NCBI GenBank assembly: GCA_002086835.1
Contig: MVIG01000003.1
Coordinates: 186,001 to 250,000 of the forward strand
Reading direction: 5' to 3'
DNA length: 64,000 nt
From: Mycolicibacterium porcinum
Lineage (GTDB): Bacteria > Actinomycetota > Actinomycetes > Mycobacteriales > Mycobacteriaceae
Part shown: in pieces, positions 50,269 through 64,000 of the stretch
How the letters are laid out: each line of letters begins with the position of its first letter
Position numbering within the stretch: the stretch's first letter is position 1
The notes under the pieces: generated by a model
Databases searched by the model: none
What the model was told of the DNA's origin: nothing
Seen by the model: only the letters and a program-made list of their open reading frames with translations
Translations under genes and position numbers: made by a program

Positions 50269-51006
50269 ATGACACTCACCCCGGCCGACCATCGCTACCT
50301 GCAGGTCGCGCGCACCCTGCGCAAGGAGATCGTCGACGGGGTGTACCCGGTGGGCTCCCAGTTGCCCACCGAACACGAACTGTGCGAGCGCTTCGAGGTG
50401 AGCCGCTACACCGTGCGCGAGGCGCTGCGCCGGCTGCGCGACGACAACCTCGTCACGTCGCGGCCCCGGGCCGGCACCACGGTGGCGCCCCGGGCCGCAA
50501 CGAATACCTATGCCCAGGACGTGGTCTCGATCAACGACCTGCTGGCGTTCGCCACCGGCGCCCAGTTCACCATTGAGTCCAACGCCATGGTCACGATCGA
50601 CGGGGAGTTGGCCGACCGCACCGGATTGCCGATCGGCGAGCAGTGGCTGGCGGTCCGCGGCTACCGGCAGTCCGACGACGATCCCGCGCCGGTCTGCCGC
50701 ACCGAGTACTACATCAACCGCAGCTTCGCCGCCGTCGGGCGGCTGTTGCAGCGCCATTCCGGCCCGATCTTCCCGCTCATCGAAGATCTCTTCGGGGTCA
50801 GCATCGTCGAAGTGCACCAGGAAATCTCAGCGATCGTCACCTCACCCGATCTCGCCGCGGGCCTCAAGGTCAGCGCCGGATCGGCAGCACTGCAGATGCA
50901 GCGCACCTACACCACCTCCGATGGTGAGATCGCCCAGGTCACCGTCAACACCCATCCGTCCGACCGGTTCCGTCACTCCATGACGATGCGCCGGGTCAAG
51001 GGCTGA
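50269..51006 (+). CDS. GntR family regulator, HutC/UTRA subfamily
   Basis: A 245-aa regulator. The N-terminal winged helix has LRKEIVDGVYPVGSQLPTEH and the recognition part FEVSRYTVREALRRLRDDNL. The C-terminal UTRA ligand domain runs from about 90, with LRTEYYINRSFA-like and SGPIFPLIEDLFGV segments. It probably binds the TTGTCCGGACAA-type sites at 48519 and 48615 and releases them when a pathway acid or CoA ester accumulates. It starts 5 nt after the lactonase stop. Confidence 0.88.
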   Translation: MTLTPADHRYLQVARTLRKEIVDGVYPVGSQLPTEHELCERFEVSRYTVREALRRLRDDNLVTSRPRAGTTVAPRAATNTYAQDVVSINDLLAFATGAQFTIESNAMVTIDGELADRTGLPIGEQWLAVRGYRQSDDDPAPVCRTEYYINRSFAAVGRLLQRHSGPIFPLIEDLFGVSIVEVHQEISAIVTSPDLAAGLKVSAGSAALQMQRTYTTSDGEIAQVTVNTHPSDRFRHSMTMRRVKG

Positions 51007-51011
51007 GGCAC

Positions 51012-52580
51012 GTGCGCAATCTGGTCCGACGGGACGAGACCCGTGCGGCCGACGCCTACGCCCGCCGACTGTGGGTGTCGACCACCCTGGCCGACGCCCT
51101 CGCCGACGCGGCGCGGCACACCCCCGACCGGGCACTGGTGGTCGACGGTGACACCACCCTCACGGCCCGCGAATTACACGACCGGGCAAGGGCTCTGGCT
51201 CTGCGGCTGACCGAGTGGATGCCGGTGGGCAGCGTGGTGTCCTTCATGCTGCCCAACTGGCACGAAGCCGCGATCATCTACCTCGGCGCCACGCTGGCCG
51301 GCATGACGGTCAACCCGATCCTGCCGTCACTACGCGACCGCGAACTGTGCTTCATCCTCGACGACGCGAACAGCCGGGCGATCTTCATCCCCGCCCAGTT
51401 CGGTGGCCACGACTACGCGGCGATGCTCACCCGAGTGACCGGCCGGCTCGCCACACCGCCGGAAGTGGTGGTGCTGCGCGGGGATGCGGGACCGCACCAC
51501 GCATTCGACACCCTCGCCGCCGCGCCGGATCACGAACTACCCGCGCTGGATCCGGACGATGTCCGGATGATCATGTACACCTCGGGCACCACCGGCCGCC
51601 CCAAAGGGGTATTACACAGCCACAACTCGATCAATGCGCTGATCCGCCAGCTGCAGGAGCACTGGATGATCGACCCCGGCGACACCTTCCTGGTGCCCTC
51701 GCCCATCGCTCACATCGGCGGCTCCATCTACGCCTTCGAATGCCCCTTGCTGCTGGGCAGTACCGCGGTGCTGATGCAGCGCTGGAACGCTGAGGACGGC
51801 GTAGCCCTCATGACCGAACACCGATGCACCCACATGGCCGGGGCCACACCCTTCCTGGAGCAGCTGCTGGGAGCCGCCGAACGATCCGGCACCCGCCTAC
51901 CCGATCTCAAGGTGTTCATCTGCGGTGGCGCATCGGTGCCGCCGTCTCTGATCCGGCGCGCGTCGGGCTACTTCGACCGGGCCGTGGTCAGCCGGGTCTA
52001 CGGCTCCACCGAGATTCCGGTCACCACCGTCGGCTCGCTGGCCCCCGGAGGCGTCGAGCATGCCGCCGAGACCGACGGACAGCCAGGGATCGCCGAGATC
52101 CGACTGGTCTCCGGGGAGATCCGGGCCCGGGGCCCCCAGATGCTGCTGGGCTACCTGCACCCCGAAGACGAGATCGAATCCTTCGATGAGAACGGCTTTT
52201 TCCGCACCGGCGACCTCGGCCGATGGGTCGATGGCGACTATCTGCAGGTGACCGGACGGGCCAAGGACCTCATCATCCGAAACGGCGAGAACATCTCCCC
52301 CAAGGAAATCGAGGACCTCCTGGTCGGTCAGCTCGGCATCACCGAGGTGGCCGTGGTCGGCCTGCCCGACGACCGCACCGGGGAACGCGCCTGCGCGGTG
52401 CTGGTCACCGCCGACGGCGAGCGGCCCGGCGTCGCCGACCTGGGCCGGCTGCTGGCCGAGCACGGGCTGGCCCGGTTCAAAACACCCGAGCAGGTGGAGA
52501 TCTGGGATGCCCTGCCGAAGAACGACGCCGGCAAAGTGTTGAAGCATCAGATCCGCGCGACGCTGAAGGGGCATCACTAA
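51012..52580 (+). CDS. Acyl-CoA synthetase (AMP-binding) 1
   Basis: A 522-aa ANL-superfamily ligase. The P-loop is MYTSGTTGRPKGVLHSH, the adenylate motif is YGSTEIPVTT, GDLGRWVDGDYLQVTGRAKD is the hinge region, and the catalytic Lys is in LPKNDAGKVLKHQIR. It activates a carboxylic acid to its CoA ester, probably the ring-opened acid. GTG 51012 lies 5 nt after the gntR stop. Confidence 0.88.
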   Translation: MRNLVRRDETRAADAYARRLWVSTTLADALADAARHTPDRALVVDGDTTLTARELHDRARALALRLTEWMPVGSVVSFMLPNWHEAAIIYLGATLAGMTVNPILPSLRDRELCFILDDANSRAIFIPAQFGGHDYAAMLTRVTGRLATPPEVVVLRGDAGPHHAFDTLAAAPDHELPALDPDDVRMIMYTSGTTGRPKGVLHSHNSINALIRQLQEHWMIDPGDTFLVPSPIAHIGGSIYAFECPLLLGSTAVLMQRWNAEDGVALMTEHRCTHMAGATPFLEQLLGAAERSGTRLPDLKVFICGGASVPPSLIRRASGYFDRAVVSRVYGSTEIPVTTVGSLAPGGVEHAAETDGQPGIAEIRLVSGEIRARGPQMLLGYLHPEDEIESFDENGFFRTGDLGRWVDGDYLQVTGRAKDLIIRNGENISPKEIEDLLVGQLGITEVAVVGLPDDRTGERACAVLVTADGERPGVADLGRLLAEHGLARFKTPEQVEIWDALPKNDAGKVLKHQIRATLKGHH

Positions 52581-53353
52581 TGCAGGTTGCGATCGTCACC
52601 GGAGCCAGCAGTGGAATCGGGTTCGGCTGTGCCACCGCGCTCGCCGACGCGGGCATGGCGGTGCTCGGCACCGGCCGCGACACCGACCGGCTCGCCGAAC
52701 TCGAGCGAGCCGTAGGCGACCCAGACCGGATCGCCACCCTTGCCGTCGACCTGACCGACGATGACGCACCTCAACGCATCGTCGAATCCGCGTTGTCCCG
52801 CTGGGGCCGCATCGACTTCCTGGTCAACAATGCTGGCATCGGCAGTCCCAAACCGCTGCACGAGACCGACGACGAAACCCTCGACCGCTTCCTCGGGATC
52901 ATGCTGCGGGCACCCTTCCGGCTGGCCCGAGATGTGCTGCCGCACCTGGGACCCGGATCGGCGATCATCAACGTCACCTCCACGTTTGCCGTCGTCGGCG
53001 GATTGCGGGGCGGCGCATACTCGGCGGCCAAGGGCGGGCTGACCGCGCTGACCACCCACATCGCCTGCCAGTACGGCGCACAGGGCATCCGGTGCAATGC
53101 GGTGGCCCCCGGTGTCACCGTCACCCCGATGGTCGAGCAGCGGCTCAACGACCCCGGTTTCCGCAAGATGCAGACCGAGATGACGCCCCACACCCGGCTG
53201 GGCCGAGTCGAGGACATCGCTGCCACCGTGGCATTCCTCTGCTCTGAGGGCGGCAGCTTCATCAACGGGCAGACCATCGTCGTCGACGGCGGCTGGAGTT
53301 CGACGAAGTACCTGTCGGAGTTCGCACTTCATTCGGAATGGATTGCCCCATGA
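52580..53353 (+). CDS. SDR oxidoreductase of the plus-strand arm
   Basis: A 257-aa SDR: VAIVTGASSGIGFGCATALA, NNAGIGSPKPL, active-site Ser in NVTSTF and YSAAKGG, ending GQTIVVDGGWSS. It starts at ATG 52580 in a TAATG overlap with the synthetase, and its stop overlaps the next start (ATGA). Likely a hydroxy-acid, hydroxyacyl-CoA or alcohol dehydrogenase of the pathway. Confidence 0.87.
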   Translation: MQVAIVTGASSGIGFGCATALADAGMAVLGTGRDTDRLAELERAVGDPDRIATLAVDLTDDDAPQRIVESALSRWGRIDFLVNNAGIGSPKPLHETDDETLDRFLGIMLRAPFRLARDVLPHLGPGSAIINVTSTFAVVGGLRGGAYSAAKGGLTALTTHIACQYGAQGIRCNAVAPGVTVTPMVEQRLNDPGFRKMQTEMTPHTRLGRVEDIAATVAFLCSEGGSFINGQTIVVDGGWSSTKYLSEFALHSEWIAP

Positions 53354-54822
53354 ACGTTTTCGCGGTGCTCGATCAGGCCGCCGCACGGTTCGGCGACCGG
53401 GGCGCGGTGTTCCTGGGCGAGCGCCAACTGCTCACCTGGGCGGAGTTGCGCGAGCGCGTGCTGCGGTTGGCCACCTCGTTGAAATCACTCGGCGACCGCG
53501 GCACCCGGGTCGCTGTGGCCAGCGAGAACCGGCCCGAGATCGTCGAGCTGATGTTCGCCATCTGGGCGGCCGAGTGCGTGTTCGTACCGATCAACTACAA
53601 GCTGCATCCCCGCGAGATGGCCGACATCCTCGCCGATTCCAGTGCGGCCCAGGTGTTCGCGTCGGCCAAGATCGCCGCCGATCTTGCCACCGTGACCGAA
53701 ACCCCGGTGGAGATCATCGGCAGTCAGGACTACTCGGACCGGTTCGGCTCCGAGCCTGCACATCCGCCGACCACCGACCCGAGCACGCTGGCCTGGCTGT
53801 TCTACACCAGCGGCACCACCGGAAAATCCAAGGGCGCCATGCTGTCCCACCGCAATCTGACGGCGATGACGGTGGCGCACCTGGCCGACTTCGACGACCC
53901 CGACGAGAACTGCAGCCTCATCCACGGCGCACCCATGTCCCACGGCTCCGGTCTCTACATCCCGCCGTACGTGCTGCGCGGGGCTCGGCAGGTGGTGCCC
54001 GAATCCGCCGCGTTCGAACCCGACGAGTTCCTGGACCTGTGCGGCCATCATCCCGGCAGCAGCGCATTCTTGGCTCCGACCATGGTGCAACGTCTGATCC
54101 AGACCGGCAGGCCCCGCCCCGAGAACCTGAAAACCGTGGTCTACGGAGGCGGGCCGATGTACGTCGACAGCCTCAAGAAGTCGCTGGCCGCCTACGGCCC
54201 GATCTTCGTGCAGCTCTACGGGCAGGGCGAGGCCCCGATGACGATCACGGGGTTGCGCCGTCGCGACCACATCGACGCCGATGATGCGACTCTGGGCTCG
54301 GTGGGTTATCCGCGCTCCGGCGTCGAGGTCGCCGTGGTCAACGAGGACGGTACCCAGACCACCGTCGGTGAAATCGGCGAGATCGTCTGCCGTGGCGGCG
54401 TCGTCATGTCCGGCTACTGGAACAACCCCGCTGCCACCGCCGCGACTCTCAAGGACGGTTGGCTGCACACCGGCGACATGGGCTCCTTCGACGCGCGCGG
54501 CTATCTCACGCTGCGCGACCGCTCCAAGGACGTGGTGATCAGCGGAGGCAGCAACATCTACCCCCGTGAGGTGGAGGAAGCTCTGCTCGAACACCCCGAT
54601 GTCGTGGAGGCGGGTGTGGTGGGAGCCCCCGATGCGGACTGGGGTGAGGTGGTGGTCGCGTTTGTGGTCGGCGACGTCTCCCCCGCAGTCCTGGACGCGC
54701 ATCTGCTGGAACGCATCGCCCGGTTCAAACGGCCCAAACGGTACGAGTTCATCGATGCGCTGCCCAAGAACAGTTACGGCAAGGTGCTCAAACGCGAACT
54801 GCGGGAGCGGTTGAAGCGATGA
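53350..54822 (+). CDS. Acyl-CoA synthetase (AMP-binding) 2
   Basis: A 490-aa ANL ligase: FYTSGTTGKSKGAMLSHRN P-loop, LYGQGEAPMTITGL adenine region, TGDMGSFDARGYLTLRDRSKD hinge, and the catalytic Lys in LPKNSYGKVLKRELR. It probably handles a second acid of the same route. It is the last gene of the plus-strand arm and is coupled to the SDR upstream. Confidence 0.88.
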   Translation: MNVFAVLDQAAARFGDRGAVFLGERQLLTWAELRERVLRLATSLKSLGDRGTRVAVASENRPEIVELMFAIWAAECVFVPINYKLHPREMADILADSSAAQVFASAKIAADLATVTETPVEIIGSQDYSDRFGSEPAHPPTTDPSTLAWLFYTSGTTGKSKGAMLSHRNLTAMTVAHLADFDDPDENCSLIHGAPMSHGSGLYIPPYVLRGARQVVPESAAFEPDEFLDLCGHHPGSSAFLAPTMVQRLIQTGRPRPENLKTVVYGGGPMYVDSLKKSLAAYGPIFVQLYGQGEAPMTITGLRRRDHIDADDATLGSVGYPRSGVEVAVVNEDGTQTTVGEIGEIVCRGGVVMSGYWNNPAATAATLKDGWLHTGDMGSFDARGYLTLRDRSKDVVISGGSNIYPREVEEALLEHPDVVEAGVVGAPDADWGEVVVAFVVGDVSPAVLDAHLLERIARFKRPKRYEFIDALPKNSYGKVLKRELRERLKR

Positions 54823-55178
54823 GTGCTTGAGGGCTTGCTGAGCCGTTCTGCGGCGCCGAATGTTGAGGCCGCGACAGCAATCGGAACGTGAAGGCGACGT
54901 CTGTCAATCCGGCGGGCATGTAACCACACTTGCTCTGTGACTGTTGTAACTCAGAGGGGACGGTCGCATATGCGCCATGGCATGGATAGCTAACTGCTAA
55001 CGCTGTGGGCATCGCGTGCTTCGGGGAGGAACAAGGGATGAGCGGTCCGCATGATGGCTGGCAAGCTCACGGCGCGGAACAGCCCAGAGCGCCCACCGGA
55101 TCGAGAGTACGACAATGAGCGGTGCTGAATCACAAACGATTCCTTGACGAATCTTTTAAGGCCCGCGTGCCCCTATGG
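54823..55178. other. Gene-free gap after the catabolic locus
   Basis: 356 nt with no supportable gene, promoter or hairpin. Base composition falls toward its right edge, where the orphan SLATT-type gene ends. Confidence 0.5.
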
Positions 55179-56015
55179 CTAAGTATCGCTTTTCGCTTCA
55201 TGCGGCTGATCGAGTTGTTGCTGGCGCTTCCGCTGCTCGGCCTTAATGATCTCGATATCCGTCGCCAGTTTGTGAAGGTTCAGACTTTCGTCCGTCGCAT
55301 CGTACGGGTGTATTCCCAAATCAAACGCCGACAGGTTTTGCTCGATGCTGTCGGCGGTCTGTTGCAAGTAGAAACTGCGCTCTCGGTATTTGAAGTATCC
55401 GGTGAATCCAGCAGACACACCCACCAAGAAACTGAGGCCTACAGTGACCCATTTAAGTGATGACGGCGTTGCCGCGAGGCTCGCCGCGGTGGTAGTACCC
55501 AGAGATCCGATGATAATAATCGATTGGAATGCATTATGGATTCGTCCGTACCGCTTCGCCTCGGCTCGCAATTGCCTCAATTCTCGCGGAATAACGTCCT
55601 TGTAAGCGTACTGACGTTGATAAACCGGTAGACCGAGCTGCGCCGCGTTTATTCGACGAGATTCTTCTGCTAGCTCCAGATCCAACTGTAGGCGACGAAC
55701 CGACGTCCTCTTATCTTTGGGACGATCATACTCAACGATAAGAAGCGCCACGAATGCCAGAATTACCAACAAAGTGATAGGAATTGCAACCCGATTTATC
55801 TGACCAAGATCTAATTTGCCCCATGTCAGCGTTGTAACCACGAAAATGATCAGCGCCGAGGCGATCGCCGCCACACCAAAAACCAACCTGGTCCTCAACT
55901 CAAGACGCCTGACACGAATCGCTTCCTGCAGAAGAAGAATTCGCTCATTATGCGCCAGAAGACGCGCCTGGGGACCGCTGGTGCTGTGCAGTTGCTCGGT
56001 CAAGCGTTCTCCCAT
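55179..56015 (-). CDS. SLATT/DUF4231-type membrane protein
   Basis: A 278-aa protein with two pairs of transmembrane helices: LVFGVAAIASALIIFVVTTL plus AIPITLLVILAFVALLIV, then AFQSIIIIGSLGTTTAASLA plus VTVGLSFLVGVSAGFTGYF. A cytoplasmic helical tail follows, with KYRERSFYLQQTADSIEQNL. This layout and the tail match SLATT/DUF4231 proteins, proposed as membrane effectors in nucleotide-signalling and defence systems. ATG 56015 was chosen as a normal family start; the frame continues upstream. Codon use is less GC-rich than its neighbours, suggesting recent transfer. No partner enzyme is adjacent. Confidence 0.7.
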   Translation of the reverse strand: MGERLTEQLHSTSGPQARLLAHNERILLLQEAIRVRRLELRTRLVFGVAAIASALIIFVVTTLTWGKLDLGQINRVAIPITLLVILAFVALLIVEYDRPKDKRTSVRRLQLDLELAEESRRINAAQLGLPVYQRQYAYKDVIPRELRQLRAEAKRYGRIHNAFQSIIIIGSLGTTTAASLAATPSSLKWVTVGLSFLVGVSAGFTGYFKYRERSFYLQQTADSIEQNLSAFDLGIHPYDATDESLNLHKLATDIEIIKAEQRKRQQQLDQPHEAKSDT

Positions 56016-56630
56016 TAATAATGTTGGACGGGCCGCGTTGATCGTACCAGCGACCGTCTGATAGGTGCGGCGCGCGGAACCCGATCGAAAGACATATCCA
56101 TTGTTCTCCGATTGGACGGATTCCCTACATCCGATCCCCGCAGAAATCGTCCGTTGCGCACGCGCAACGTCGTCAGAGCCCCCGGCGAAAGCACTTCGCC
56201 GGAGGCACAAGAACTGCATCTGGATCGGACTCCCGCAGCGGAAGCACGTACTACGGGATCAACGTTGCTCTTGGCTGGCACGACGACGAAGGCGGCGCCA
56301 CCGCAATATCTAGCAACGAGCAGAACTCCGTGCATGAGCATTAGGTGGGCCATGCGTGGTCGCCGGCACTACAAGCGCCGCCCGCGGGGCTCGTAGCTGC
56401 ATGTGGACAACAAGTTGGATTGGATGAGCCATCATCATGATCGACGCTGGACTCTTCCGCAGTCGCGATCAGAACCAACCGGCCGGACATTACGGAAACA
56501 ACTCACCCCGCTGCAACTTTAAACAAAGCGAAAGGTGGATCACCGGGAAATGCGGCTTGACCTTCTGTGCACGGACAACCGAGAGCCGGCATGACATCGC
56601 TAGCCCGCGCAAAGCTGCCGATCAGCACAT
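56016..56630. other. Gene-poor gap next to the SLATT gene
   Basis: 615 nt. Short frames on both strands lack Shine-Dalgarno sequences and recognisable domains. I see no tRNA, integrase or terminal repeat, and nothing else that I can assign. Confidence 0.5.
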
Positions 56631-57704
56631 TCACCACATCAGCCCGGGGATCAATGCGGTCGGCGGGATATCCTCGGCGGCAACCAGTCCCGCCGGAGCG
56701 TCACACACCCAGTCGATCGCGTTCACGACGCGCGCCGCGGTGGACAGACATCCGGCGTCGGTCGCATCGAGCACCGGATGAGACAGGTTCGTGTTCACCT
56801 CGATGTGTGGCTCGCCCTCCACGATCACCTTGTGCACGCCGGACTGGCCGTCGGGCGGGTACTCCCAATCCGGCGCCGCCGCAGGAGTGAGCCGTGTGGT
56901 GTGCTCGACCGTGATGACCGGTTCGCCGCCGCGCACGCCTTCGGTGGCAAATCGTGTGCCGGCCAACTGCCCGGGCTCGACGGTCATCATCGTGCACTCG
57001 ATGCGCTCGGTGGCATACCACGGCTCGAACCGCTGACGAACCTCGTCGAGCTCCACGCCAAGATGATGGGCCAGATTGCGCACCAATCCGCCGAACATCG
57101 CCGTGATCACGCCCGGCTGGAATGCCATCGGCAGCCCGTCGTCCGGAGTGGTGCCGAAACCCATTGCGGTGCCGGTGTATTCGTAGTCGTCGTAGTTGCC
57201 GTAGTCGAAGATCTCCTTGACGGTCACCGACTCGGCCCGGGTGACCAGACTGAGCGCTGCGTACACCGCGGTGTCCCCCGAGTATCCGGGATCGATGCCG
57301 TTGACATACAGCGAGGAGTTCCCCGCCGAGCAAGCCTCCGCCAGCGGTACCCGCAGCCAATCGTCGGCCTGGCGCGGTGTCACCAGCCACACCATGGAGG
57401 TTCCGACGACATTGATCCCGGCCGCCAGGAACCGCGACATCTGCTCGATGGCCTCCATCGGCCGCGTCTCCCCTAAGGCCGTATAGACGACGCAGTCGGG
57501 GCCGAGGGCGATGAGAGCGTCGATGTCGTCGGTCGCGATGACACCGGTCGGTTCGCCTACTCCACACAATTCGGCAGCGTCACGGCCGATCTTGTCCGGG
57601 CTGGAGGCATGAACACCCACCAGCTTCAGGTCCGGCCTGCCGATGATCGCCGCCAGTGAATGCCTACCGACATTGCCGGTGGAGAATTGGACCACTCTGC
57701 GCAT
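56631..57704 (-). CDS. DapB-like NAD(P)-dependent dehydrogenase
   Basis: A 357-aa protein with an N-terminal Rossmann domain (VVQFSTGNVGRHSLAAI) like dihydrodipicolinate reductase and amine dehydrogenases. GINVVGTSMVWLV and NGIDPGYSGDTAVYAALSL follow. Actinobacterial members of this group are often labelled dihydrodipicolinate reductase-like but are probably not in lysine synthesis. ATG 57704 was preferred over a TTG at 57710. It is divergent from the P450/NorQD-like operon and may share its control region. Confidence 0.82.
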   Translation of the reverse strand: MRRVVQFSTGNVGRHSLAAIIGRPDLKLVGVHASSPDKIGRDAAELCGVGEPTGVIATDDIDALIALGPDCVVYTALGETRPMEAIEQMSRFLAAGINVVGTSMVWLVTPRQADDWLRVPLAEACSAGNSSLYVNGIDPGYSGDTAVYAALSLVTRAESVTVKEIFDYGNYDDYEYTGTAMGFGTTPDDGLPMAFQPGVITAMFGGLVRNLAHHLGVELDEVRQRFEPWYATERIECTMMTVEPGQLAGTRFATEGVRGGEPVITVEHTTRLTPAAAPDWEYPPDGQSGVHKVIVEGEPHIEVNTNLSHPVLDATDAGCLSTAARVVNAIDWVCDAPAGLVAAEDIPPTALIPGLMW

Positions 57705-57770
57705 CGTCAAGACCTGTTCCAGTTCTCCCGAATGGTGGTGAAACCTCTTCGGCGCCGGTTGAGTAGCCGA

Positions 57771-57800
57771 TTGACTACCTCATTTGGTTGACTATAGTCA
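57771..57800 (+). promoter_or_regulatory. Sigma-A-type promoter with embedded palindrome, likely leaderless
   Basis: TTGACT (57771-57776) and TATAGT (57793-57798) are spaced by 16 nt. The -10 box lies inside TGACTATAGTCA (57789-57800), a perfect 12-bp palindrome. The ATG of the next gene is at 57807, 9 nt after the -10, so transcription would begin at or very near the start codon. A repressor bound to the palindrome would cover the -10. Confidence 0.65.
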
Positions 57801-57806
57801 GCGTGC

Positions 57807-58538
57807 ATGAACTTGCCAACGTTGAACCTGCGGCGCAGCGGCGACAGGGTCGAGGCGGCCCGCCCCTCACCGAGCGGGCTCGACGAACACCTGGAGACCT
57901 CACTACGCGCACAGCGCCAGGCCGACAAATGGCTCATCTCCGGAAGCCTGCTCATCGGCACCGCGGCCCTCGGCATCTTCGGCCTGCCGCTCTTCCTCAG
58001 GGGCGTCTGGCTGCTCCGCAAGGCTCAGCGCGACGGGCTGTCCGTCCGGCCGATGCTGGTCACGCTGATCGGCTATCTCGTCATCATCGACGCCGCGATC
58101 AACACCGTCGGCTGGGCCCTCGACGTCGCCGCCAACCACACCATCCTCGCCCGAATCCTATTGAACGGCTGGGGTGCAATGTTCGACGCCGGCTACTTCT
58201 GGCACTACAACGAGCTGTGGATCGGCGGGGCGGCCGGGCCCGGTGAAAAGGCCATGGAAGTCGGCATGATCCTCACCGTCTTCACGATGCGGATCGCCGC
58301 AGGCATCGGGTTCCTGCAGATGAAACGCTGGGGCCACCAGTGGATGATCATCACCTGCTGGATGGGTGTGCTCATCTGGTGCCTCTACGTGTTCAACATG
58401 ACGATGTTCGCCGATGTCCGTTTCTCCGGCGTCGTGCTGCCGGTCATCGGGTGGTGGCTGTACGACATCTTCTACATCACCCCGTTCCTCGCAATCCCGT
58501 ACCTGCATTCGGTGAACCGCGAGATCTTCTCCGACTAA
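57807..58538 (+). CDS. Multi-pass membrane protein A1
   Basis: A 243-aa protein with about six helices. Conserved features shared with A2 (61813-62547) include [49 protein letters not shown] and [13 protein letters not shown]. The many Trp, His and Tyr residues between helices could hold a cofactor or a hydrophobic ligand. I recognise no named family; a distant tie to AveC-like membrane proteins is possible but unverified. It is the first gene of the operon, probably translated from a leaderless mRNA. Confidence 0.75.
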   Translation: MNLPTLNLRRSGDRVEAARPSPSGLDEHLETSLRAQRQADKWLISGSLLIGTAALGIFGLPLFLRGVWLLRKAQRDGLSVRPMLVTLIGYLVIIDAAINTVGWALDVAANHTILARILLNGWGAMFDAGYFWHYNELWIGGAAGPGEKAMEVGMILTVFTMRIAAGIGFLQMKRWGHQWMIITCWMGVLIWCLYVFNMTMFADVRFSGVVLPVIGWWLYDIFYITPFLAIPYLHSVNREIFSD

Positions 58539-58556
58539 TTCATTGACTTCACTCAT

Positions 58557-58568
58557 TGACTGCAATCA
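58557..58568. promoter_or_regulatory. Operator candidate upstream of the second TetR
   Basis: TGACTGCAATCA is near-palindromic (5 of 6 pairs) and resembles TGACTATAGTCA at 57789. It overlaps TTGACT (58556-58561), a possible -35, with TAGAAA 17 nt downstream (58579-58584). This suits autoregulation by the TetR whose ATG is at 58595. Confidence 0.5.
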
Positions 58569-58594
58569 GTAAGTGGGTTAGAAATGAGCCGACC

Positions 58595-59197
58595 ATGACG
58601 CCTCAGATCAAGCAGTCGGCGCGCGAATTGCGCCGACTGCAGACGCGGGAACGGATACTCGGCGCGGCCGTCGCCGAGTTCCAGGCATCGGGCATGGCCG
58701 GGGCGGACGTCGGCGCGATCGTCAGTGCAGCAGGCGTTGCCCACGGGACCTTTTTCTTCCACTTCCCCAGCAAAGAACATGTCCTGCTCGAACTGGAGCG
58801 TCGAGAAGAGACGCGCATGGCAGCCGAATTCGCCGGCTTTCTGGAGAATGCACATGATCTCGCGTCGGCGCTGACCGAACTCGTCCGCCTGGTGGGCAGC
58901 CTGGAGCAACGATTCGGACCGCTCTTGTTCAAAGAAGTTCTTGCGCTGCACTTCTCGCCGACGCGTCCCACCGAGGACGAGTGGAGCGACCACCCGGTGA
59001 TCGTTCTGCTCGTCCGTGAGATCGAGCGCGCCCGTGGCGACGGCGAGGTGCATCCCGAGGTCGACGCCTTCTACAGCGCCGCATTCTTCCTCCTGGGGAT
59101 CTACGGCGTCCTGACCACCACCGCCAACAGTCAGCACCGCGACGCGATGCTGGCCAACTTGGTGATCACCGCACGACGAGGACTGGAGGTCCGATGA
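58595..59197 (+). CDS. TetR family regulator (paralogue of the TetR at 22.0 kb)
   Basis: A 200-aa TetR protein: RILGAAVAEFQASGMAGADV, then GTFFFHFPSKEHVLLELERR in the DNA-binding domain, and a ligand domain with SPTRPTEDEW, HPVIVLLVREIERAR and AAFFLLGIYGVLTTT. It aligns end to end with the protein at 22021-22650. ATG 58595 was chosen for the TetR-like N-terminus. It sits inside the operon between A1 and the microprotein and probably controls both promoters. Confidence 0.85.
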   Translation: MTPQIKQSARELRRLQTRERILGAAVAEFQASGMAGADVGAIVSAAGVAHGTFFFHFPSKEHVLLELERREETRMAAEFAGFLENAHDLASALTELVRLVGSLEQRFGPLLFKEVLALHFSPTRPTEDEWSDHPVIVLLVREIERARGDGEVHPEVDAFYSAAFFLLGIYGVLTTTANSQHRDAMLANLVITARRGLEVR

Positions 59198-59224
59198 ATC
59201 ATCCCTTCTGCGAGGAGAACTGAC

Positions 59225-59332
59225 GTGGCCGACTGGATCTGGGAGATACTCCGCTACGTGGCCGCGTGGGGCGGCACCGGCTTGATCATCTGGTTCTGGT
59301 ACTGGATGTTCTCCAACATCGGCACCTTCTGA
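59225..59332 (+). CDS. 35-aa membrane microprotein
   Basis: GTG 59225 follows GCGAGGAGAACTGAC, with GAGGAG at good spacing, and TGA ends at 59332, 4 nt before the VWA gene start. The peptide opens MADWIWEILRYV and then has a single helix with GTGLIIWFWYWMF before NIGTF. The seven Trp/aromatic-rich positions suggest a membrane subunit or chaperone rather than a random frame. A second microprotein lies later in the same operon. Confidence 0.68.
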   Translation: MADWIWEILRYVAAWGGTGLIIWFWYWMFSNIGTF

Positions 59333-59336
59333 AGGC

Positions 59337-60878
59337 GTGACACAGCAGATGCCCGAACTCGACGAAGCCCACGCCATGGCGACCGAGCGCAGTTGCGCCG
59401 TCACTGCCATGGCGCTGAGCGACGGGCGCCGCACCGGCGCCCGTCTGGTCAGCGGTCAGCACCGCGGCTTCGGCTTGAGTTCCCTGCTCGACGTCGTGCA
59501 TGTGCCCTATCCACCTCGTCGCGACTGGACCCGACGAACACTGACATGCGGTGTGGCACTGCAATGCTCACCATCCAAAGAGCGCATCCTCGACTACCGG
59601 CTCAACGAGCTCTCGGCGCGCGAACTGGCCGCGCTCACGCTCGTCGAGGCCGGTGTCGCGCTGGGCTGGGTCGCCGAGCACTGGCCCGGACTGCTGGCCG
59701 ACCTGCGGGCAGCGCTTCCGCACCTGGAACCCGCAGACGCCGACATGGACGCCAAGGAGATGCTCAACCGGGCCATCGCCCTTGCGCGTACATCGCAGCA
59801 GTTCTCCATCGACCCACTGCTCGGCAGCCTGCCTCGGGCGCACACCCTGCCGCAGGGCCTCTCCGACAAGCTGCGCCGTACCTTCGGGCGGCTGCCGTGG
59901 ACCACCAACCAGAAGCGTTCACCGGCACCACATTCCGTCCCCGCCGGCGGGGACGGAGGGGTACGCAACTCGAACCTTCCGCCACCCAGCCGACCCCAGG
60001 ACAACGACCTCGACATCACCCCCGACCACCGGCCGGGAATCCCCTACCCGGAATGGAACGCGTGGACGAAGAGCTTCATGCCGGACCACGTCGCGGTTCT
60101 CGAGCAGACCCGTGCCAGCCGCGACCGACATCCCGGCGCAGTCGCTGTCGACGTCCGGAAGTGGTTCGAGGAGAACACCCACCGGGCCATGAAGAACCGG
60201 CTCGAAGACGGCTCCGACCTCGACGTCGACCAGTACGTCAACCACTTCATCGACCTGACGACCGGTGAGGCGGTCGAACCGCGCCTCTTCCGCGAACTGT
60301 TGCCCGCCAGCCGCGATGTGACAACCGCGCTGCTCCTCGACGGCAGCTCCTCGCTGGGCGTGCACGGAGGCCGGATCTTCAAACTCGAGCTCGCCTGCGC
60401 CGACGCCCTGTCCCGCGCGATGACGTCGGCCCGGGAACGCCACGGCATATTCACGTTCACCGGGAACACCCGTCATCGCGTAGAGGTCAGCTGCCTCAAG
60501 GATTTCGCGGACCGACGTTTCGTCCCGCCCGGCAGCCTAGGGCTGTCCACCGGGGGCTACACCAGACTCGGTGCGCCGCTGCGGCATATGACCAGCCGCC
60601 TGCTCGCACAGCCATCGGAGCGCAGACTGCTCATCGTCGTCGGTGACGGCCTGATCTCGGACGAAGGCTATGAGGGCCGCTACGCCTGGGCCGATGCCGC
60701 CCACGCCGTGGAGGAAGCCAACGATGCCGGCGTCTCCATGTACTACGTCGGCGTCGGGCCCGTCCGCGTCGATCCCCTGCCGGAAGTGTTCGGGCCCAAA
60801 CGGTCCCAACGCATTCGCCGAGTTGAGGAACTCCCCCGTGTCCTCGCCCATGTCCACCGGGAGCTGGTATCCGTATGA
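59337..60878 (+). CDS. VWA-domain protein, NorD/CbbO-like
   Basis: A 513-aa protein whose C-terminal third is a von Willebrand A domain. The MIDAS motif DGSSS lies at about 335-339, a Thr in STGGYTRLGAPLRH and GDGLISDEGYEGRYAWADA complete the site, the latter being very NorD-like. The N-terminal part is helical with no other domain. NorD/CbbO proteins work with a NorQ/CbbQ AAA ATPase to remodel a metalloenzyme (nitric oxide reductase or Rubisco). Here the ATPase is the next gene, overlapping by 4 nt, but neither of those usual client enzymes is present. Confidence 0.85.
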   Translation: MTQQMPELDEAHAMATERSCAVTAMALSDGRRTGARLVSGQHRGFGLSSLLDVVHVPYPPRRDWTRRTLTCGVALQCSPSKERILDYRLNELSARELAALTLVEAGVALGWVAEHWPGLLADLRAALPHLEPADADMDAKEMLNRAIALARTSQQFSIDPLLGSLPRAHTLPQGLSDKLRRTFGRLPWTTNQKRSPAPHSVPAGGDGGVRNSNLPPPSRPQDNDLDITPDHRPGIPYPEWNAWTKSFMPDHVAVLEQTRASRDRHPGAVAVDVRKWFEENTHRAMKNRLEDGSDLDVDQYVNHFIDLTTGEAVEPRLFRELLPASRDVTTALLLDGSSSLGVHGGRIFKLELACADALSRAMTSARERHGIFTFTGNTRHRVEVSCLKDFADRRFVPPGSLGLSTGGYTRLGAPLRHMTSRLLAQPSERRLLIVVGDGLISDEGYEGRYAWADAAHAVEEANDAGVSMYYVGVGPVRVDPLPEVFGPKRSQRIRRVEELPRVLAHVHRELVSV

Positions 60879-61669
60879 CTGACACGTATTACGCCAACGC
60901 CAACGAGGTGCAGCTCTTCGAGCAGGCCTGCCGCCAGCGTCTGCCGGTGATGCTCACCGGCCCGACAGGATGTGGCAAGACCCGCCTGGTCGAGCACATG
61001 GGACTGCTGCTCAGCCGTCCGGTCGTCACCATCAGCTGCCACGACGACCTGACCAGCTCTGACCTCGTCGGACGGTTCATGGTCACCGGCGGGGACGTAG
61101 TCTGGACCGACGGGCCCCTCACGCGAGCCGTCAAGGCCGGGGCGATCTGCTACCTCGACGAGGTTGTCGAGGCGCGTCACGATTCGTTGGCCGTCCTGCA
61201 CTCGCTCACCGACCACAGACGCACGCTCTACCTGGATCGCGCGGGTGAAGTCGTGCATGCGCCAGAGACTTTCATGCTGGTGTGCTCCTACAACCCCGCC
61301 TACCGCAGCTCACTCAAAGAGCTCAAACCATCCTTCCGGCAGCGGTTCGTCACGCTGCCGATGCGGTATCTGCCGCCCGAACGCGAGGCCGAGGTGATCG
61401 TCGCCGAGACCGGCATCGGACTGCCCACTGCAGCGCGGCTGGTCCGGTGCGCCACTGCGATCCGTACCGCGGACGAGGCTTTCCATTTCGAACCGCCGTC
61501 GACTCGGGTACTCGTCACCGCGGCACATCTGATCGTCTCCGGTGCAACGGAACTCGAAGCCGCAGAGGCCTGCGTCCTCGCCCCGCTGTCCAGTGACGGC
61601 GCCATCACAGAAGGGTTGCGGGAGGTCGCGTCCGCATGCCTCTCCGGAGCCGACAGCCCAAGCGCCTAG
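60875..61669 (+). CDS. MoxR-type AAA+ ATPase, NorQ/CbbQ-like
   Basis: A 264-aa AAA+ ATPase. Walker A is GPTGCGKT (29-36), Walker B is ICYLDE (91-96), and the NorQ/CbbQ signature CHDDLTSSDLVGRFMVTGG, DGPLTRAVKAG and SYNPAYRSSLKELKPSFRQR (sensor region) is complete. It forms hexamers that, with the VWA partner, insert or activate a metal centre in a client. Coupled to the VWA gene. Strong family match; the client is unknown. Confidence 0.9.
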   Translation: MTDTYYANANEVQLFEQACRQRLPVMLTGPTGCGKTRLVEHMGLLLSRPVVTISCHDDLTSSDLVGRFMVTGGDVVWTDGPLTRAVKAGAICYLDEVVEARHDSLAVLHSLTDHRRTLYLDRAGEVVHAPETFMLVCSYNPAYRSSLKELKPSFRQRFVTLPMRYLPPEREAEVIVAETGIGLPTAARLVRCATAIRTADEAFHFEPPSTRVLVTAAHLIVSGATELEAAEACVLAPLSSDGAITEGLREVASACLSGADSPSA

Positions 61670-61684
61670 GAAGGAATCGCCGCC

Positions 61685-61816
61685 ATGGTGGATCAGAAGG
61701 AAAAGAACCGCAAAAAGGCCCTCATCGTCCTGCAGCTTGTCATCTACGGATACCTGCTGGCGATGTTCGGAATCCAGCTGTACATGTCGTTCACCCGGGG
61801 GTGGTGGGACTTGTGA
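61685..61816 (+). CDS. 43-aa membrane microprotein
   Basis: ATG 61685 is preceded by AGGAAGGA and followed by a basic start (VDQKEKNRKKAL), a single transmembrane helix (IVLQLVIYGYLLAMFGIQLY), and [10 protein letters not shown]. Its TGA overlaps the GTG of A2 (GTGA), so it is translationally coupled to that membrane protein. It is too short for most gene callers and is the second aromatic-rich microprotein of this operon. Confidence 0.72.
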   Translation: MVDQKEKNRKKALIVLQLVIYGYLLAMFGIQLYMSFTRGWWDL

Positions 61817-62547
61817 ACATCCCTCTACTGAACCGAAAACCGGACGCCAAGGTCACGGCATCCGTCCCGGCAGAGGGTTCGCTCAACCTCGAGGAGCACC
61901 ACGAACAGTCCCGGCTGGCGCAGCGGCGGGCCGACAAGTGGATGATCGTCGGTGCGGCCCTGATGGGGATGTGGGCACCCGGGCTCATCGGCTTCCCCAT
62001 CTTCATGCGCGGCGTGTGGTTACAGCGCCAGGCACTGCGAGCAGGGTATTCCGTCCGTCCGATGATCGTCACGCTCATCGGATATCTCGTGCTCATCGAC
62101 GGCATGCTCAACAGCCTCGGGTGGGCCCTCGACCTGGTCGCCAACCACACGCTGATCAACCGGGTGTTGATGGTCGGGTGGGGCGCCATGTTCGACGCCG
62201 GCTACTTCTGGCACTACAACGAGCTGTGGATCGGAGGCGCAGCCGGTCCGGGCGAGAAGTCCATGGTGTTCGGCATGATCCTCACCGTCTTCGCGATGCG
62301 GTGCGCCGCGGCGATCGGATTCCTGCAGATGAAACGCTGGGGCCACCAATGGATGATCATCACCTGCTGGATGGGAGTGCTCATCTGGTGTCTGTACGTG
62401 TTCAACATGACGATGTTCGCCGATGTCCGCTACGCAGGCGTCGTGTTCCCGGTCATCGGGTGGTGGCTCTACGACATCTTCTACATCACCCCGTTCCTCG
62501 CGATCCCGTACCTGCACACGGTGAACCGCGAAATCTTCTCCGACTGA
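61813..62547 (+). CDS. Multi-pass membrane protein A2, paralogue of A1
   Basis: A 244-aa protein starting at GTG 61813 (overlap with the 43-aa gene). It is near-identical to A1 over long stretches, for example [40 protein letters not shown] and the C-terminal VNREIFSD, and differs mainly at the N-terminus and in the first helix. The pair likely arose by duplication inside the cluster and may form a heterodimer. Confidence 0.78.
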
Positions 62548-62566
62548 ACGCATTCGAGGAGCAGCC

Positions 62567-62989
62567 ATGACCACCCCCACAGAAACAACCGAAGAGAACA
62601 CCGAGGACCTCCCTCCCGGCACCACGCCGTACTACGCGCGCATGCACAAGTGGATCAAGCGCGCCGTCCTGGTGTGCCTGGTCGCCCTCGTCGTCGAGGG
62701 CGCCTTCACCCTGCCGTTCATGGCGGTCTACTACGGCTACCCGACCTTGAGCCTGACCCAGATCTGCAGTGAACTGCTCAAGGTTCGCTATTCCGACGAC
62801 ACCCTCGAATGCAAGGTGCCGTACCCGGCGTTCGGGCCGCCCGAGGGAGCCGAGGGCAAGGACACCGCGCAGGACGAGTGGGGCATCCAGCCGGTACCCA
62901 AGTACCACCGGATCGGGTTCCGTGAGCTGGTGCGAATCCACGAGGAACGTGAAGCACGCCAAGCCGCTGAACAGCAGCAGAGCCGCTAG
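62567..62989 (+). CDS. 140-aa membrane-anchored protein of the P450 operon
   Basis: One strong transmembrane helix at about 31-55 ([20 protein letters not shown]), then a mostly polar tail with [20 protein letters not shown], two cysteines, and a charged C-terminus ([16 protein letters not shown]). I recognise no family. It sits between A2 and the P450, with AGGAGG-type ribosome-binding sites on either side; it could anchor the P450 to the A1/A2 membrane complex. Confidence 0.7.
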
Positions 62990-63000
62990 GAGGAGTCCCC

Positions 63001-64000
63001 GTGCCGGAGTCACTCGAACGCCACGCCGAGAACTGGGATCTGCGCCACCAGGATTTCAACGACAACGACTTCCTCTACGACGTCTACTCGGAGATGCGAA
63101 GGCGATCGCCGTTCGCGCGAACCGACAAACCATTCCTCAGCGCGACGCCGGCCGGCGCGTGGGTGGCGGTGCGCTACGCGGAGTGCGTCAAGATCCTGCA
63201 GGATTGGGAGCACTTCTCCAGCAATCCGACACCCGAGGGCGCCGAGCAGCTGGCGGGGGACCTGGTGATCACCCTCGACCCGCCGCGGCAGCAGAAGTTC
63301 CGCAAAGTCCTGAACCCGTACTTCTCCCCGGCACGGATGAAGGCGCTGCGCCCCGAGATCTGCGCCGAGACAGACCTGCTCATCGATGAGTTCATCGAGA
63401 ACGGATCCGGTGACCTGGCCCAGATCGCCTGGCGCCAGCCCGGAATCGTGTTCTTCAAGTATCTGCTCGGTATGCCGATCGAAGATGTGCCGCTGTGCGT
63501 CGAGCTGACCGACACGGCACTCAACGGAGCCACCGAGCAGGACCGGATGACCGCCTGGGGCGGGCTGTACCAGCATCTGCACGACGCCGTGACGGCACGA
63601 ATGGACCAGCCGCCCCGTGACGACATGATCGACGTCCTGCTGTCCGCCGAGATCGACGGTGAGAAACTGTCATTCGGCGATGTCGTGTCCAACGCCATGC
63701 TCCTGGTCCAGGCCGGTCTCGAGACAACGGCCAGCGCAATGTCTTTCGCCTATCACTACCTTGCCACCAACGCCGCCGAGCGCGACCGTCTGATCGGCGA
63801 TCCCGAACTCCTCTCCCGTGCGGTCGAGGAATTCATCCGGTTCGCCGGGTCGATCCACGGCATCCCCCGCACCGTGGCCAAAGAGGTCGAACTGAACGGC
63901 TGCACCTTCTCGCCGGGCGAATCGGTCATCGTCAACTATGCCGCCGCCAACCGCGACGAACAGGAATTCCCGGATGCGGGGCGGTGCATCCTCGATCGCC
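63001..64000 (+). CDS. Cytochrome P450 (3'-truncated by the window end)
   Basis: The first 333 residues of a P450. Visible motifs are the I-helix LLVQAGLETTASAM, and ExxR in EEFIRF. The heme-binding Cys loop lies beyond base 64000. GTG 63001 follows TAGGAGGAGT. It belongs to an operon with NorD/NorQ-like proteins, two membrane paralogues and two microproteins, unlike the stand-alone P450 at 16.2 kb. The frame is intact to the last base. Confidence 0.88.
   Translation, partial: MPESLERHAENWDLRHQDFNDNDFLYDVYSEMRRRSPFARTDKPFLSATPAGAWVAVRYAECVKILQDWEHFSSNPTPEGAEQLAGDLVITLDPPRQQKFRKVLNPYFSPARMKALRPEICAETDLLIDEFIENGSGDLAQIAWRQPGIVFFKYLLGMPIEDVPLCVELTDTALNGATEQDRMTAWGGLYQHLHDAVTARMDQPPRDDMIDVLLSAEIDGEKLSFGDVVSNAMLLVQAGLETTASAMSFAYHYLATNAAERDRLIGDPELLSRAVEEFIRFAGSIHGIPRTVAKEVELNGCTFSPGESVIVNYAAANRDEQEFPDAGRCILDR

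Follow-up and report, generated by a model that had tools for sequence, protein, structure and literature searches.

A putative four-part membrane enzyme encoded with its own MoxR-type ATPase/VWA pair in Mycolicibacterium porcinum and other Mycobacteriaceae

INTRODUCTION

In Paracoccus denitrificans, the AAA+ ATPase NorQ and the VWA protein NorD insert FeB into the membrane-bound nitric oxide reductase cNOR, according to the accessible parts of PMC9976466 and PMC13036017. The mechanism proposed there is that NorD holds on to acidic NorB residues with its metal ion-dependent adhesion site (MIDAS) and that NorQ twists NorD. The related proteins CbbQ and CbbO, named in PMC13036017, form an activase for Rubisco. 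Here we describe a locus of Mycolicibacterium porcinum in which a pair of this kind stands among genes for unfamiliar membrane proteins. The locus lies in a stretch of 64,000 nucleotides, referred to below as the window (assembly GCA_002086835.1, contig MVIG01000003.1, positions 186,001 to 250,000). Scans of open reading frames (ORFs) and of Pfam families found the following series of genes at window positions 57807 to 64000: A1, a TetR-type regulator, pep35, the VWA protein, the AAA+ ATPase (AAA), pep43, A2, an anchor protein, and a cytochrome P450. We refer to the ATPase and VWA genes as the pair, and to A, pep35, pep43, and the anchor gene as the membrane genes; pair and membrane genes together make up the cassette.

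The locus resembles the NorQ/NorD-cNOR system, as presented in the available sections of PMC9976466 and PMC13036017, in two respects. A CbbQ_C-type AAA+ gene stands beside a VWA gene with a DxSxS-T-D MIDAS, and the putative integral membrane target is clustered with them and has a partner anchored by a single helix (NorC there, the anchor protein here). In contrast to that system, the target here is not a heme-copper oxidase, and no NorB or NorC was found among the ORFs scanned. The H2i motif also differs (GRFMV here, GRXLL/I there), and neither the target nor its two microproteins fall into a named family. The CbbQ/CbbO activase (PMC13036017, in part) has the same AAA+ and VWA classes, but no Rubisco gene was found among the ORFs scanned and the target here is membrane-bound. 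MSMEG_0748, to judge from the accessible portion of PMC12657314, is another MoxR-type ATPase of mycobacteria with a link to an enzyme gene cluster, in its case one for CO dehydrogenase; we liken it by description, not by sequence.

We propose that the cassette probably encodes a four-subunit integral membrane enzyme, made of A, pep35, pep43, and the anchor protein, together with its own MoxR AAA+/VWA activator. The pair is of a known kind, whereas the target complex with its two microproteins has no name in Pfam or NCBIfam. We found no description of the cassette in the open-access literature, searched by title and start of abstract, with most subscription papers and all preprints outside its scope. 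Within that literature, the original prediction from the DNA sequence that this is a candidate for an undescribed system holds.

RESULTS

The membrane genes travel with the ATPase/VWA pair

A search of the GTDB genome collection with A1 gave 279 relatives, of which we kept the best 80, with flanks of up to 10 kb. Of these 80 loci, 76 keep the order A1-pep35-VWA-AAA-pep43-A2-anchor unbroken. One of the others is rearranged (L059), and three are cut by contig ends (L088, L092, and L098). pep35, pep43, and the anchor gene are present in nearly all 80 (Table 1), and the loci that lack a microprotein are those cut by contig ends. Among named records, the nearest A1 relatives are those of [Mycobacterium] fortunisiensis (95% identity) and Mycolicibacterium peregrinum (93%).

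Because the best 80 loci skew to close relatives, we also searched 201 genomes drawn evenly from across the family. We found A in 19 of them, representing 7 of 31 genera. An AAA gene of the same subclass occurs in 18 genomes, at 74 to 100% identity; the others among the matches listed (E 1e-40) are at most 51% identical. Each of the 18 AAA genes has an A gene no more than about 1 kb away, as judged by eye from the coordinates, and none of the 18 occurs in a genome without A. In the one A-positive genome without the ATPase (G019, locus L124), A stands at a contig end that cuts the VWA gene. The co-occurrence of A and AAA gives a Fisher p of 9e-25, phylogeny ignored. In wider samples, A was present in 28 of 397 genomes of the order and, at E 0.01, in 10 of 396 genomes of the phylum, one of them (G828) a weak fragment with a stop.

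The original prediction linked the pair with A1, A2, both peptides, and the 140-aa anchored protein. Both the conserved gene order and the joint occurrence of A and AAA in 18 of 19 genomes bear this out. Asked whether A homologs occur mostly without the pair, the same sample answers in favor of linkage.

A smaller set of genes forms the core of the cassette. We compared ten loci (L116 to L125) that belong to other genera or are additional copies. Six of them, from four other genera (L118 to L123), have the layout pep35-VWA-AAA-pep43-A-anchor, with a single A and without the P450 of the window; a TetR match stands in front of the cassette in four of these six. In L117, pep43 is flanked by an A gene on either side; L125 shows the complete A1/A2 layout, and L124 is cut by the contig end. 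The extra copy L116 consists of pep35-pep43-A-anchor without the pair. In all three intact extra A copies (L116, L191, and L192), pep35, pep43, and the anchor gene are kept, and no AAA or VWA gene lies within their 18 to 20 kb. Because these copies keep the four parts without the pair, the four look like an inseparable unit. A fourth extra copy, at L193:8793-9615, is a decayed A gene next to a TetR gene. In genome G045, a second, different CbbQ/VWA pair lies about 5.6 kb downstream of the cassette (L125:18462-19999).

The doubling of A seen in the window is outside this core design. A1 and A2 are 74% identical, in agreement with their earlier description as paralogs. A tree was built from 55 A proteins, with 21 of the 80 loci represented along with 15 others. 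In it, the A2 copies form one clade (support 100/100), the A1 copies form another (90/97), and the single-copy A proteins fall outside both; by the tool's own warning, these support values are rough. A1 and A2 thus derive from one late duplication.

Because A, pep35, pep43, and the anchor protein travel with the pair across genera, the client of the pair is most likely the four-subunit membrane complex, not the P450.

Properties of the encoded proteins

The gene set proposed earlier was found in full (Table 1). The TetR gene between A1 and pep35 had gone unmentioned in the original prediction.

Table 1. Features of the cassette and its flanks, in window coordinates
Feature	Position	Strand	Basis and remarks
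DapDH-like oxidoreductase	56631..57710	-	Pfam DAP_DH_C; DapB_N below cut-off; divergent from A1; frequent neighbor
A1, polytopic membrane protein, 243 aa	57807..58538	+	A2 paralog; no named family
TetR-type regulator	58595..59197	+	Pfam TetR_N E 7e-12; ATG start assumed, ORF opens at 58556 (TTG)
pep35, tryptophan-rich hydrophobic peptide, 35 aa, C terminus NIGTF	59225..59332	+	Present in 79/80 loci; codon pattern; cross-genus alignment
VWA protein, NorD/CbbO-like, 513 aa	59337..60878	+	Pfam VWA just over cut-off; MIDAS DGSSS ... GYTRLG ... GDG
CbbQ/NorQ-type MoxR AAA+ ATPase, 264 aa	60875..61669	+	Pfam AAA_5 and CbbQ_C over cut-off; Walker A/B
pep43, single-transmembrane peptide, 43 aa	61685..61816	+	Present in 77/80 loci; codon pattern; hydropathy peak 2.23
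A2, polytopic membrane protein, 244 aa	61813..62547	+	Same place as the lone A gene in other genera
Anchor protein, 140 aa, one transmembrane segment and conserved C-terminal part	62567..62989	+	Present in 77/80 loci; cross-genus alignment; one hydropathy peak
Cytochrome P450	63001..64000, runs 222 bases beyond the window	+	Pfam p450; optional neighbor

The ATPase matched AAA_5 (E 7e-36, 123.6 bits against a cut-off of 22) and CbbQ_C (E 9e-21, 74.4 against 20.6 bits), and the VWA protein matched VWA (E 3e-5, 24.8 against 23.8 bits). The P450 is complete at 406 aa in the contig past the window (L003:13002-14222), and the whole protein matched p450 at E 6e-27. A1, A2, pep35, and pep43 had no Pfam match at E ≤1. 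The single match of the anchor protein, HAAS_TM at E 0.23, is at chance level, and the small proteins of the locus gave only sub-threshold NCBIfam matches (pep43, E 0.012).

We assigned the GTG start of A2 by its relatives, which begin with MNLP or MNIP; the mechanical ORF opens at 61636. Given this start, pep43 and A2 overlap by 4 bases, as do the VWA and AAA genes. These overlapping gene ends suggest translational coupling. Both microproteins behave as real genes: they are present in nearly all of the 80 loci, and their changes concentrate at the third codon position, which shows constraint at the protein level. For pep35, the changes at the three codon positions are 0.079, 0.033, and 0.268, with 634 synonymous and 203 nonsynonymous codon changes; the corresponding values for pep43 are 0.170, 0.050, and 0.331, with 797 and 639. 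Hydropathy plots gave five peaks for A, one each for pep43 and the anchor protein, and none above 1.3 for pep35, which appears by eye to span the membrane.

The Walker and MIDAS motifs of the pair are present. Walker A and Walker B are kept in all 77 AAA relatives. The VWA protein of the window has DGSSS at residue 335, GYT at 407, and GDG at 436. Among its 79 relatives, DxSxS is kept in all, a GDG-type motif in 75, and GYTRLG in at least 75 (absent in 2), and a stricter three-part MIDAS pattern matched 52.

Surroundings of the cassette

Two neighbors recur in the 76 loci with the anchor gene on the plus strand. A TetR gene lies within 3 kb upstream of the VWA gene in 70 of them, and a DapDH-like gene flanks the cassette, on one side or on both, likewise in 70. 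A DapDH-like gene was counted upstream at ≥65% identity within 8 kb of the VWA gene or downstream within 3.5 kb of the anchor gene.

Pfam scans revealed no norC, norB, or Rubisco gene among the ORFs scanned on either side of the cassette. Beyond the window, the scan took in the larger, non-overlapping ORFs as far as L004:17660, 23.7 kb past position 64000, and it found no nitric oxide reductase or Rubisco. Over the window and these 23.7 kb, the claim of a NorQ/NorD-type pair without either enzyme thus stands for the ORFs scanned. Among the larger ORFs beyond the window, two encode P-type ATPases, one a fumarate-reductase-subunit-like protein, one a polyketide-cyclase-like protein, and one a copper amine oxidase; the rest encode permeases and further enzymes. 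Upstream of the cassette, window positions 50269 to 56219 hold genes for a GntR/UTRA regulator, two acyl-CoA ligases, a short-chain dehydrogenase/reductase (SDR), and a DUF4231 protein.

The ORF after the P450 (L003:14239-14748, 238 to 748 bases past the window end) matched the fumarate reductase subunit D and C profiles over cut-off. It encodes an isolated membrane-anchor subunit, without frdA or frdB among the genes scanned. RavA-ViaA, a MoxR/VWA pair of Escherichia coli, is tied to fumarate reductase in the accessible part of PMC10585395. We considered this ORF (memX) as a part of the cassette and dropped it, having found only weak, scattered matches across the 80 loci.

Distant relatives and points against a four-subunit client

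A genome of another class (G744) encodes an A protein of 40% identity, with short ORFs before it and VWA (37%) and AAA (51%) genes after it. Among 151 genomes of its order, this type of A occurs only in G744 itself. One short ORF before the G744 A gene ends in HFGTF, against NIGTF in pep35. We ran profiles of the anchor protein, pep35, and pep43 on 1156 ORFs of six loci. The pep35 profile matched the G744 ORF ending in FGTF at E 0.036, with the next match at 1.0. After the clear members, the best match of the anchor profile was an 82-aa ORF (E 0.031) that adjoins an A gene of 34% identity on a plasmid of Mycobacterium branderi. This ORF looks like a fusion of pep35 and the anchor protein, the anchor half by the profile match and the pep35 half by eye. 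The M. branderi A gene (L174:11603-12711) has no CbbQ or VWA gene in the 25 kb shown, and an unlisted short hydrophobic ORF lies nearby. Its neighbors are genes for a mycofactocin-coupled SDR, an aldehyde dehydrogenase (ALDH), and a GMC oxidoreductase.

Besides the skew of the 80 loci, several observations weigh against a four-subunit complex served by the pair. In these distant loci of G744 and M. branderi, the pep43 profile recognized nothing, and the anchor profile matched an ORF beside the G744 A gene at E 0.21, close to the next unrelated ORF at E 0.27. The pair may be dispensable, or may work in trans, because it is absent beside the three intact extra copies and the M. branderi copy. 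The H2i motif of NorQ, GRXLL/IXXXXT, which binds the VWA finger (PMC13036017, in the part available), is only partly conserved. Its counterpart, GRFMVTGGDV in 72 of 77 AAA relatives, keeps the GR and, in kind, the hydrophobic pair, but not the Thr. Four histidines of A that look like ligands (H112, H134, H178, and H235) are invariant among its 13 closer members; G744 and M. branderi both lack H134, H178, and H235, and of the two only G744 retains H112. AlphaFold models of A2 (81 sequences) and A1 (120 sequences) were poor, with mean predicted local distance difference test values of 64.9 and 58.0, and so we make no structural claim. Foldseek with the A2 model found nothing below E 0.001 in the PDB.

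Other sampled CbbQ/VWA pairs of the genus stand near AveC-like genes

CbbQ_C is present in 70 of 98 genomes of the genus. We picked 20 further CbbQ loci by hand from these genomes. One is of the A type (L173), and all 19 others (L154 to L172) have an AveC-like gene close to the CbbQ/VWA pair. Class I (seven loci) has the order VWA-CbbQ-binding protein-AveC, followed by an SDR-like ORF, ALDH, and P450 genes. Class II (12 loci) has the order AveC-CbbQ-VWA, except that L172 has AveC-VWA-CbbQ. The AveC_like family was matched far above its cut-off in all three class II proteins scanned (L161, L166, and L172). The genome of the window itself has one class I locus (L005:638-14296, contig 20), with genes for CbbQ/VWA, an AveC-like protein, a periplasmic-binding-protein-like protein, an SDR-like ORF, an ALDH, P450s, a TetR regulator, and a DapDH-like protein. 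Because all 19 sampled loci without A carry AveC-like genes and the others carry A, the pair appears to accompany polytopic membrane proteins of two families in this genus.

AveC is a spiroketal-forming and dehydrating enzyme, according to the accessible part of PMC13303154. In the portion of PMC10876796 available, a spirocyclase, P450, SDR, ALDH, and CbbQ are named only as unmapped genes. The AveC-like loci (PF17198) resemble the cassette in having a polytopic protein near the pair and, in class I, also P450, SDR, and ALDH genes. They differ in that A is unmatched by PF17198 and in that the gap after AveC, the only place checked for microproteins, holds the SDR-like ORF. We tried A as a member of the AveC family and rejected it: A1 and A2 had no PF17198 match at E ≤1, nor did 81 members at E ≤10. 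A profile comparison of A with AveC-like proteins (hhalign) gave a weak match, with P 0.008 over 52 columns.

What A might be

Among the 15 A proteins compared, the invariant residues include D41, D96, N100, D107, D128, N136, E148, and K149. We weigh three readings of A.

The first is that A is an acid-base enzyme, such as an isomerase, dehydratase, or cyclase, of the EXPERA superfamily (PF05241), which includes EBP (6oht) and TMEM97 (7m93). The pair would then remodel it without a metal, as CbbQ and CbbO do with Rubisco. A shares with these proteins about five transmembrane segments and a weak colinear match through one divergent member. The G744 A protein matches PF05241 at E 0.0015, although its 19.3 bits fall short of the Pfam cut-off of 25.7. 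When aligned with a mycobacterial EXPERA-like family, it scored 32.6 over 117 columns, compared with a maximum of 19.8 for 34 unrelated membrane-protein controls and 17.2 for its own reverse. That family in turn matches human EBP (P 4e-4 over 119 columns), and the A profile matches EBP, TMEM97, and the EXPERA-like family taken together with P 0.007 over 33 columns. The presence of AveC (PMC13303154, in part) near other mycobacterial pairs also speaks for an enzyme of this chemistry.

In contrast, the linking family is itself below the PF05241 cut-off, at 16.3 bits. The other 14 A proteins, taken singly, scored 12.4 to 18.1 against it, no better than controls, and among 81 aligned A members only 2 matched PF05241, the better at E 1.6. 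Direct comparisons failed, with P 0.23 (A profile) and 0.47 (G744) against EBP and P 0.39 and 0.10 against TMEM97. No EXPERA structure is among the best 50 Foldseek matches listed. Sub-threshold scores alone prove little: across 198 genomes, PF05241 had matches in 35, at no more than 18.7 bits, and it also matched 7 of 14 controls, every time under its cut-off. The alignments are weak though mostly in one register at the C terminus, and the A models are poor. We know of no EXPERA protein with extra subunits and an AAA/VWA pair. EXPERA membership of A is a lead, not a result, and we rate the acid-base reading as possible though doubtful.

We traced the EXPERA-like family, marked by an ADTRY motif (L196 and L225 to L244), from the highest-scoring PF05241 match over the 198 genomes. 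It is present in 26 of 96 genus genomes, with some of the matches being fragments. In at least 11 of the 26, its gene lies within 12 kb of a CbbQ gene, as compared by eye from the coordinates. PF05241 is noted in mycobacteria in the accessible part of PMC9903846.

The second reading is that A is a metal-dependent membrane oxygenase or hydroxylase, of the copper or di-iron type, into which the pair inserts metal as NorQ and NorD insert FeB. This is the known role of that pair, to judge from the available part of PMC9976466. A has many conserved His, Asp, and Glu residues; alcohol and aldehyde oxidation genes stand beside the M. branderi copy; and genes for LuxC and an ALDH-like protein lie near L191. 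However, three of the four histidines are not kept in the AAA-linked A of G744, and A1, A2, five divergent relatives, and 81 members had no Pfam family over cut-off. We rejected A as a copper monooxygenase of the particulate methane or ammonia monooxygenase type, of which Pfam found no family in these proteins or in the anchor protein. D96, D107, D128, and E148 are kept, and a carboxylate-bound metal would be compatible with them. A metal-centered monooxygenase is possible, though we consider this reading unlikely.

The third reading takes the four membrane proteins as a transporter or channel, with the pair as a gating or assembly factor. A polytopic protein with small partners and no recognizable catalytic domain would fit it. 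The neighbors looked at, however, mostly encode enzymes that metabolize lipids, alcohols, or aldehydes, and the acidic residues in or near the predicted helices are strongly conserved. We hold a transporter to be improbable.

The P450 looks like an optional companion

The original prediction inferred a membrane-associated monooxygenase whose heme or metal center is assembled by the pair. With the P450 taken as this enzyme, A1, A2, and the peptides would be its membrane platform. Among the 77 loci with the anchor gene, an orthologous P450 (≥60% identity) directly follows the anchor gene in 38 (39 of 76 by a slightly different rule). No ortholog stands next to the cassette in L117 to L123 or L125, and L124 is cut before that point; other P450s lie near the cassette in L117 and L189. 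In the 201-genome sample, an ortholog (E 1e-120 or better, ≥64% identity) is present in 7 of the 19 A-bearing genomes and in none of the 182 others. All seven are in one of the 31 genera. Five are adjacent to the cassette, and two are unlinked (G029 and G069).

Because the ortholog occurs only in A-bearing genomes, its distribution speaks for a pathway shared with A. As a rule, bacterial P450s of this kind are expressed without helper proteins like the pair. We rejected the P450 as the main client because of the loci without it: its frequent adjacency, its restriction to A-bearing genomes, and the P450s near L117 and L189 favor it, but half of the loci have no adjacent ortholog, the ortholog is confined to one genus and sometimes unlinked, and the cassettes of other genera go without it, so that we consider a P450 client highly improbable. 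The P450 looks like an optional companion rather than a part of the core.

DISCUSSION

The gene content, the conserved order, the linkage of A and AAA, the ATPase and MIDAS motifs, and the late A1/A2 duplication describe a cassette with a stable core. From these and from the analogy with NorQ and NorD, we infer a physical complex, chaperone action upon it, an enzymatic role, and a class of substrate. According to this model, the VWA protein would use its MIDAS to dock, at the membrane, onto an acidic patch of the A complex. Twisting of the VWA protein by the CbbQ-type hexamer would open the A complex and make it competent, either because a metal ion gains entry or through a change of conformation alone. 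The resulting enzyme would most likely act on a hydrophobic substrate (lipid, terpenoid, or sterol-like), and the products of the surrounding P450, DapDH-like, SDR, acyl-CoA ligase, or kinase genes may process the same substrate.

A hydrophobic alcohol or acid is suggested by the neighbors, because they include acyl-CoA ligases, an SDR, APH/EcKL-type kinases, epimerase/3-beta-hydroxysteroid dehydrogenase-type proteins, and LuxC. The epimerase/dehydrogenase-type proteins stand beside L118 and L123, and LuxC is near L191. Other neighbors are off this theme: Rho beside L121 and a glycosyltransferase beside L120. Three distant cassettes adjoin an APH/EcKL-type kinase gene, which is on the strand of the cassette in two of them (L120:7986-9143 and L189:12151-13371) and on the other strand in the third (L117:10655-11818).

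A broader conjecture is that MoxR/VWA motors of mycobacteria and their relatives serve an unrecognized class of membrane enzymes of lipid acid-base or carbocation chemistry (the A complex, the AveC-like proteins, and the EXPERA-like proteins) rather than redox metal enzymes. The A complex would then be a multisubunit bacterial member of the sterol isomerase superfamily with two obligatory microproteins. We regard this conjecture as rather unlikely.

MoxR/VWA pairs are widespread chaperones, few of which have a known target, a point that the NorQ/NorD papers make about their mechanism. The linkage described here points to one target, which includes two microproteins that annotation can miss. 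If the AveC-like and A proteins are in truth related, this would explain the CbbQ gene in 70 of the 98 genus genomes. The cassette may thus offer a compact, testable four-subunit membrane complex in several genera of the Mycobacteriaceae, in the GTDB sense of that family.

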